This document shows positions 33,392-37,797 of a DNA stretch of 38,275 nt, in pieces (within the stretch, counting starts at the first letter, position 1; each line of letters opens with the position of its first letter). Under the pieces are notes generated by a model. That model saw only the letters and a list, made by a program, of their open reading frames with translations, did not search any database and had not been told where the DNA came from. The position numbers were made by a program, and so were the translations under genes. The DNA is from an uncultured Halobacteria archaeon (GTDB taxonomy: Archaea > Halobacteriota > Halobacteria > Halobacteriales > Haloferacaceae), in the NCBI GenBank assembly GCA_937142015.1, contig CAKZQY010000290.1, positions 1 to 38,275 on the forward strand, in the 5' to 3' direction.

Positions 33392-33453
33392 CGCCTCTCT
33401 GTCGGCGTGGTACTCCCGTAAGGGTGTCGGAGCGGCGACCGCGGCCGGCGTCG

Positions 33454-33564
33454 TACGGTCGTGCGTAGTGATTTTCGGTGACTGTCGCGGTATCGGGCGG
33501 TATCACGTCGCTGCGGTGCTCTCTGTCAGTCGTCGGTGGTACCGATCTACGCACGACCGTATCA
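33454..33564 (-). mobile_element. MITE-like small element, copy A (about 111 bp) bounded by TACGGTCGTGCGTAG / CTACGCACGACCGTA
   Basis: Inverted termini at 33454-33468 and 33549-33563. In reverse complement, both ends match the ends of copy B (37651-37797). Confidence 0.65.
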
Positions 33565-33699
33565 GCGCGCGCTCTCGGCGCGGTCGTGCCCCTGCCGGTC
33601 CCGCAGCGTCCGCAACTGACGGTCACACGCCGTCTCGGGAACGGACGCGCCCAGCAGCTCCGCCCACTCCGGGATGTGACACTCTGATCCTCGGGTCAT
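33562..33699 (-). CDS. Candidate 45-aa small protein (one CXn/H-containing motif)
   Basis: MTRGSECHIPEWAELLGASVPETACDRQLRTLRDRQGHDRAESAR; ATG at 33699; TGA is contributed by the repeat element end. Below the ORF-track cutoff. Confidence 0.35.
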   Translation of the reverse strand: MTRGSECHIPEWAELLGASVPETACDRQLRTLRDRQGHDRAESAR

Positions 33700-33741
33700 C
33701 GTCCGTACCCACACGAACCTCCGTGTTAACCGTTTGCCCCG

Positions 33742-36140: not shown

Positions 36141-36212
36141 GAGAGCGTGACAGACTACTCCGACGAGAGCGTGACAGGCTACTCCGACGAGGGCGTGACA
36201 GGCTACTCCGAC
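36141..36212. repeat. 3 x 24-bp tandem repeat; last copy holds the stop codon of ubaA
   Basis: GAGAGCGTGACAGACTACTCCGAC / GAGAGCGTGACAGGCTACTCCGAC / GAGGGCGTGACAGGCTACTCCGAC; ubaA stop (CTA on +) at 36203-36205. Confidence 0.95.
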
Positions 36213-37018: not shown

Positions 37019-37070
37019 GTGTGATACTCCGTCACACGCAGATATAAGACCCGCGGGACTGGACAGTCGA

Positions 37071-37175
37071 GACGAATCGATGCGACACCGGGACGGATCG
37101 ACGCGACACCGGGACGGATCGACGCGCCGCCGAGACCGATCGACGCGCCGTCAAGACCGATCGACGCGGTCCGAC
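37071..37175. repeat. 5 x 21-bp tandem repeat in the divergent intergenic region upstream of ubaA and the wHTH gene
   Basis: GACGAATCGATGCGACACCGG / GACGGATCGACGCGACACCGG / GACGGATCGACGCGCCGCCGA / GACCGATCGACGCGCCGTCAA / GACCGATCGACGCGGTCCGAC. Confidence 0.95.
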
Positions 37176-37299: not shown

Positions 37300-37313
37300 A
37301 TTCGATATCGAAT
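37300..37313. promoter_or_regulatory. Perfect 14-bp palindrome overlapping the wHTH start codon (possible autoregulatory operator)
   Basis: ATTCGATATCGAAT, with upstream TATA-like GGGTTATAGCCC (37278-37289). Confidence 0.5.
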
Positions 37314-37653
37314 GGCCGAGGAAGACGAGGAGATCATCCAGGTGCTGGGGAACAAGTACAACCCGGAGATCCTCGACGCCACCGGGGAGCCGAAGTCGGC
37401 TCAGGAACTGTCGGACGAGTTGGAGGTGCCAATTGCGACTTGTTACCGACGGATCAACGAACTAGAGGAGACGGACTTGTTAGAGCTCCACGACCGGCCG
37501 CTGTCGGACGAACACCGGCGAATCAAGGTGTACCGCCGGTGTGTCGACTCCATCGAGGTGACCTTCCGCAACGGACTCGACGTGGAACTGGAGGAACGCT
37601 CGGAGGTCCAGAACAAGCTCGATCAGGTGTGGCGAACGATGACGGAGGGGTGA
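37312..37653 (+). CDS. Winged-helix transcriptional regulator (ArsR-like)
   Basis: MAEEDEEIIQVLGNKYNPEILDATGEPKSAQELSDELEVPIATCYRRINELEETDLLELHDRPLSDEHRRIKVYRR. Confidence 0.88.
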   Translation: MAEEDEEIIQVLGNKYNPEILDATGEPKSAQELSDELEVPIATCYRRINELEETDLLELHDRPLSDEHRRIKVYRRCVDSIEVTFRNGLDVELEERSEVQNKLDQVWRTMTEG

Positions 37654-37797
37654 TACGGTCGTGCGTAGATCTACCACCGACGACTGATACGGTCGTGCGT
37701 AGATAGTTACCGCCGGCTCGACTCACAGGTGCAGTCGCAACGCGGTACCGTCCAGTACTCCGTACCCAATCGAAAATCCCTACGCACGACCCTATGA
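37651..37797 (+). mobile_element. MITE-like small element, copy B (about 147 bp) with duplicated left end
   Basis: TGATACGGTCGTGCGTAGAT at 37651 and 37685; terminal CGAAAATCCCTACGCACGACCCTATGA at 37771-37797. Both ends match copy A in reverse complement. Confidence 0.65.

Follow-up and report, generated by a model that had tools for sequence, protein, structure and literature searches.

Tn7 inserts at attTn7, a single protein-recognised site beside the glmS stop codon, and in IS870 the stop codon of the transposase is made by the CTAG target of the element. Members of the IS1031-like group of the IS5 family generate a 3-bp TNA target duplication. Short non-autonomous transposable elements (MITEs) of prokaryotes have been reviewed as occupying intergenic and 3'-UTR locations, as with QMITE2 of Coxiella, and a preference for stop codons was not described in that review (PMC10969869). 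Among the haloarchaea, MITEs have been described in Haloquadratum walsbyi, which also carries SMR-A, an element of ~110 bp that makes no target duplication and targets IS605/PATE palindromes (PMC3119063).

We examined a 38,275-nt stretch of DNA (hereafter the window, meaning the whole of the stretch that was analysed) from an uncultured Halobacteria archaeon, in which a repeat occurs as two copies, A and B (Table 1). By its anatomy, the repeat is a MITE of ~107-108 bp. It is short (107-108 nt) and has no transposase gene, it bears the 15-bp terminal inverted repeat (TIR) TASGGTCGTGCGTAG on both ends, it is flanked by a TGA/TGA or TCA/TCA target-site duplication in 68 of 88 full copies, and it exists in many similar copies (~325 half-sites, mean identity 94%). 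Two families were distinguished by consensus, with lengths of 108 nt (family A) and 107 nt (family B), and copies average ~94% identity to their consensus. The family-A TIR is TACGGTCGTGCGTAG and that of family B is TAGGGTCGTGCGTAG.

The distribution of the element was then compared between its own genome and other sequence collections. With two or fewer mismatches allowed, the ~325 TIR half-sites of the 4.34-Mb source genome compare with three for a reversed control pattern, and the copy number of the element in this genome exceeds 100. Of 393 other genomes of the class that were searched, two congeners among them, 2 contained the exact TIR, with a single occurrence in each. No match to the element was found in the plasmid database searched, and 13 IMG/VR contigs had one match apiece, none of them with both ends. 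Because the ends are virtually absent from the 393 other genomes, the MITE has multiplied recently in the source haloarchaeon, and its expansion is species-specific and local. It was also noted that the source assembly is fragmented (4.34 Mb over 450 contigs) and that at least 49 partial copies end at contig ends, so that the MITE is itself one cause of the fragmentation. Family-B elements at L200:1690..1905, L097:4841..5057 and L213:12543 are broken by a sequence starting TATACTGTCGGT, which is probably a further small mobile element, and the copy at L202:10892..10997 is placed between inverted copies of GATTGACCTCCTCCCACGG and so occupies the loop that these would form.

We found that the TGA preceding the repeat is not element sequence but belongs to a 3-bp target-site duplication, of which it forms one half. 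Among the 88 full copies, 40 are flanked by TGA/TGA and 28 by TCA/TCA, and the flanking triplet is independent of element orientation (14 vs 16 among insertions at stops). Since the triplet ignores the direction of the element and recurs as a direct repeat at both ends, it cannot be the element's own first three bases, as the original prediction had read it. The target context is S-TGA-V, which fits 75 of 77 non-coding insertions. Two consequences follow from the duplication. An in-frame TGA beside a copy was already a stop before the insertion, and, as TGA flanks every copy on one of the two strands, there is always a frame that terminates at the edge of the copy. It was also considered whether the right end (TA|TGA read as ATG A) rescues the starts of overlapping ATGA gene pairs; this was rejected, as hardly any insertion has an A immediately before the TGA. 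Eight copies carry unequal duplications: reading along the TGA strand, the left triplet is TGA and the right one CGA. The opposite polarity was never seen, and such a single polarity is not expected from random mutation.

Copy A has 40 matches at 93-100% identity in its own genome (a count that includes copy A) and lies between the divergent starts of ELP3 and AhpC/TSA genes. The minus strand at this copy reads ...GCG CGC TGA|TACGGTCG, ending at 33562, and the winged-HTH (wHTH) gene at copy B terminates GAG GGG TGA|TACGGTCG. The letters at both sites are thus as originally described, and at copy B the repeat does abut the stop of a real gene. The short reading frame at copy A is probably no real gene end: this 45-50-aa ORF, listed earlier at 33562..33699, gave no tblastn match in 64 related loci and no Pfam match, and its coding score is ~4-6 (marginal) vs 33 for the wHTH gene. 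The ORF is probably not a gene, and the two insertion sites cannot be counted as two independent coincidences, given that some frame ends at every copy.

Copy B, which spans 37654..37794 in total, was found to be nested, the outer element being of family A and the inner one of family B. The internal GACTGAC of family A at position 34 is a nesting hotspot, accounting for 9-10 half-sites in the sampled contigs with copy B included, and family B has a similar internal site at position 36. It would appear that a family-A element first landed on the wHTH stop, that a family-B element then jumped into the internal GACTGA, and that the outer right arm was subsequently lost via deletion between the two right-hand terminal repeats. 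We infer this deletion step from the anatomy of the copy and from the recurrence of 141-144-nt derivatives among the copies. Ladders of a 36-nt unit (the left 33 nt of family A plus TGA) were encountered before a further element at L111:2709..2886 and L090:7000..7055, and arose from repeated nesting or tandem growth. The window additionally contains two short tandem arrays of three copies each: one, with a 24-nt unit, lies just past the DHH gene (36141..36212), and the other, with a 21-nt unit, precedes the wHTH gene (37068..37130).

Table 1. Coordinates of the two MITE copies, their flanking duplications and the abutting reading frames in the window, with the further copies bearing unequal duplications
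Feature	Coordinates	Strand	Remarks
Copy A, intact 108-nt family-A MITE	33454..33561	-	TIRs 33454..33468 and 33547..33561
TCG, left flank of copy A, diverged duplication (CGA on minus strand)	33451..33453	none	One of eight TGA/CGA copies
TCA (minus-strand TGA), other duplication half of copy A	33562..33564	-	
45-50-aa ORF ending at copy A	33562..33714	-	No tblastn or Pfam match, weak coding score
Winged-HTH gene, 113 aa, natural TGA stop is the copy B target	37312..37653	+	Pfam HTH_20 E 1.8e-10; coding score 33
TGA, wHTH stop codon and left duplication copy of copy B	37651..37653	+	Matching TGA at 37795..37797; TGA/TGA and TCA/TCA pairs genome-wide
Left 31 nt of family-A MITE (outer element)	37654..37684	+	Matches family-A consensus up to internal GACTGA
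TGA within family A, internal hotspot position 34, site of inner element	37685..37687	+	
Inner MITE, 107 nt, family B-like interior	37688..37794	+	Left TIR TACGG..., right TIR ...CCCTA
TGA, right duplication copy	37795..37797	+	
Unequal-duplication copies	33451..33453 and 33562..33564 (copy A); L223, L207, L215, L070, L135, L176, L084		

We next tabulated the position of copies relative to gene stops. The sample consisted of 1.61 Mb of contigs, mostly chosen for carrying TIR ends, so that absolute rates are inflated while ratios should hold. Full copies were excised with one duplication and every TGA/TCA site was then classed, using gene calls from a home-made fifth-order three-periodic Markov model (1,333 genes, mean ~320 aa), in which TGA makes up 77% of the stops. 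Among 80 copies with a usable duplication, 36 (45%) coincide exactly with a called gene's TGA stop, 41 fall in intergenic DNA and 3 in coding sequence, against a background of 946 stop, 7,818 intergenic and 24,465 coding sites. The odds ratio for stops vs intergenic sites was 7.3 (p = 3e-15) and ranged over 6.9-7.8 across five gene-calling thresholds, with 36 insertions at stops seen vs 8.3 expected among the 77 non-coding ones. In an independent set, the copies at contig ends agreed, 11 of 33 TGA-flanked ends being gene stops. This is the tabulation that the original prediction had proposed as a check.

The preference persisted when the comparison was narrowed. When the reference was TGA/TCA sites lying up to 100 bp past a stop, the odds ratio was 5.3, and the rate at stops was 37 per 1000 sites vs 8 per 1000 at TGA located 0-24 bp downstream of a stop. 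After matching for motif, region type/gene arrangement and spacer length, the Mantel-Haenszel odds ratio was 7.4. Convergent intergenic regions with motif-matched sites showed an approximately 8-fold excess at stops (14/280 vs 5/779; p = 2e-5). Local sequence context was rejected as the sole cause of the preference: the motif predicts just 1.3-2x, and an odds ratio of 4.2-6.2 remained after matching on two to six flanking bases; long-range sequence or DNA shape may still contribute. It was noted that the element has no orientation bias at stops, that TGA has no strand bias at downstream intergenic sites, and that the fraction of copies at stops is equal in young and old copies. These counts support a preference for pre-existing TGA stops, with gene stops used four to eight times as often as matched non-stop TGA, and they lend support to the earlier suggestion that the element is targeted to stop codons through a TGA-containing target.

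We also compared the C-termini of stop-abutting proteins with those of homologues from element-free loci. The wHTH homologues came from 20 loci that lack the element and contain the DHH gene as well (from Halorubrum, Halohasta, Halolamina and Halobellus); they share the last residue or extend slightly further, by a few residues, and their stop is TAA, TAG or TGA. For Rpb4, which has a copy on its stop (L196:15226), alignments with 28 other genomes reach residue 117 or 118 of 118, and those with three congeners reach residue 118, and the M24 aminopeptidase MetAP (L213:3605) aligned over 297/297 residues in three congeners. Of 21 stop-abutting proteins submitted to Pfam (E <= 0.001), 20 were recognised, among them Topo VI A, proline dehydrogenase, NAC, BolA and VNG_1110C, with the match of the latter extending to residue 69 of 69. 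Judged from these alignments, the element neither made the stop nor shortened the protein in the compared genes, and their stops are ancestral. In this comparison, which the original prediction had proposed, gene ends thus differed by a few residues at most, and the other suggestion of that prediction, that insertion had created the stops, was refuted.

We consider it probable that, taken as a whole, these observations are best explained by a MITE that inserts at S-TGA-V with a 3-bp duplication, for which TGA stops are especially favoured and insertion there is self-sealing. A trans-acting DDE transposase presumably mobilises the element. A staggered cut on the stop followed by gap repair would leave TGA on both sides, so that neither the C-terminus nor the stop of the upstream gene would change, and the element would come to lie in 3' untranslated sequence. 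Insertion at a stop would thus seal itself, and insertions in coding sequence would be purged (3/80). That stops are used four to eight times more than matched TGA in apparently dispensable DNA implies that either the insertion step or an unusually strong retention favours them. The equal stop fraction in young and old copies leaves these two unseparated, and a preference at insertion seems the more likely of the two. A stronger version, in which the transposition machinery reads stop codons as such, precise to the codon, perhaps by way of a link to translation termination or to structure at terminating transcripts, seems unlikely; if true, a mobile element would gain a built-in, gene-sparing choice of target.

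The retention side can be taken to its limit, with any S-TGA-V being cut, insertions at stops invisible to selection, and most intergenic ones lost from promoters, leaders and unrecognised genes. We regard such pure survivorship as possible, if on the doubtful side. The near-emptiness of coding sequence (3 copies vs 24,465 sites) is in keeping with it, and presumably neutral sites inside elements carry insertions at ~65 per 1000 by rough arithmetic, near the ~50 per 1000 of motif-matched stops, as would be expected if the rate at stops were the neutral one and intergenic DNA were depleted. However, motif-matched stops still show the 8-fold excess in convergent regions, where no promoter is expected, and TGA within 25 bp downstream of stops is used at 8 per 1000 rather than 37; together these argue against a simple removal of harmful intergenic insertions, and the share of copies at stops is no higher among older copies. 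It is rather improbable that copies are instead retained for a benefit, each supplying a 3'-end hairpin as a terminator or RNA stabiliser. The TIRs do fold into a strong hairpin in either element orientation, and copies are found at gene 3' ends in both orientations, but a terminator would do about as well a few bases downstream, and yet the preference has single-codon resolution. The age dependence is absent here too, and occupancy is sporadic, with ~4% of TGA stops bearing a copy in the sampled contigs.

Two further readings carry far less weight. That the element brings its own TGA, creating new stops and truncating genes, is very improbable: TGA adjoins it at both of the sites first noticed, but TGA/TCA ignores orientation and stands as a direct repeat at both ends, and element-free homologues share the gene end in the three genes tested (wHTH, Rpb4 and MetAP). 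Chance, whereby a TGA target makes any copy abut a stop in some frame and the real-gene cases are random, accounts fully for copy A with its unconserved ORF; as an account of the whole it is next to negligible against 36 of 77 non-coding insertions on called stops where 8.3 were expected. The preferred reading, a MITE favouring TGA stops, has wider meaning in that mobile elements which spread without harm need safe harbours, and the 3-bp duplication makes a TGA stop a self-healing landing site. Should insertion itself be the step at which stops are preferred, this would be a choice of target for which no description was found and which is directly testable, and it could offer a tool for the scarless tagging of gene ends.

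We then searched for a source of transposase. In the source assembly, an autonomous partner was sought as convergent TIRs separated by over 250 bp, but none of these had a good partner end, and no transposase was observed in the inspected region beside the solo end L095:17901. The genome has five DDE_Tnp_1 matches, none shown between these TIRs, and the DDE_3 matches of the assembly are likewise not tied to element ends. No parental IS with a matching TIR and duplication length was found in this fragmented assembly.

In comparison with known systems, the TGA/TCA duplication agrees with the 3-bp TNA of the IS1031-like group of IS5, and, with no transposase linked here, the element was not filed in that group. 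An IS630/Tc1-mariner MITE with a two-base TA duplication was ruled out, as the direct repeats comprise three outer bases, TGA/TCA, that vary together. SMR-A resembles the element in its size of ~110 bp, prominent inverted repeats, high copy number, strong target preference and lack of a known transposase (PMC3119063). It differs in making no duplication and in targeting IS605/PATE palindromes, where the element here has a 3-bp duplication at TGA, and identity with SMR-A was ruled out on this duplication and on targets that are TGA sites and gene stops. Like other prokaryotic MITEs, the element is short, non-coding and multicopy, with TIRs, a target duplication, a mostly extragenic location and nesting; the sources consulted report no single-codon preference for stops, and no parental IS was found here (PMC10969869; PMC3119063). 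The literature that was searched contained no description of a stop-codon-targeting element. The element is of a known kind, and it is for its target behaviour that no description was found there. With Tn7 and IS870 it shares an insertion tied to a gene end or stop codon that leaves the host gene undamaged. Tn7 uses one protein-recognised site, whereas the element here uses the own stops of many unrelated genes, and the IS870 target supplies that element's own stop, whereas this MITE lands on the stops of its host's genes.
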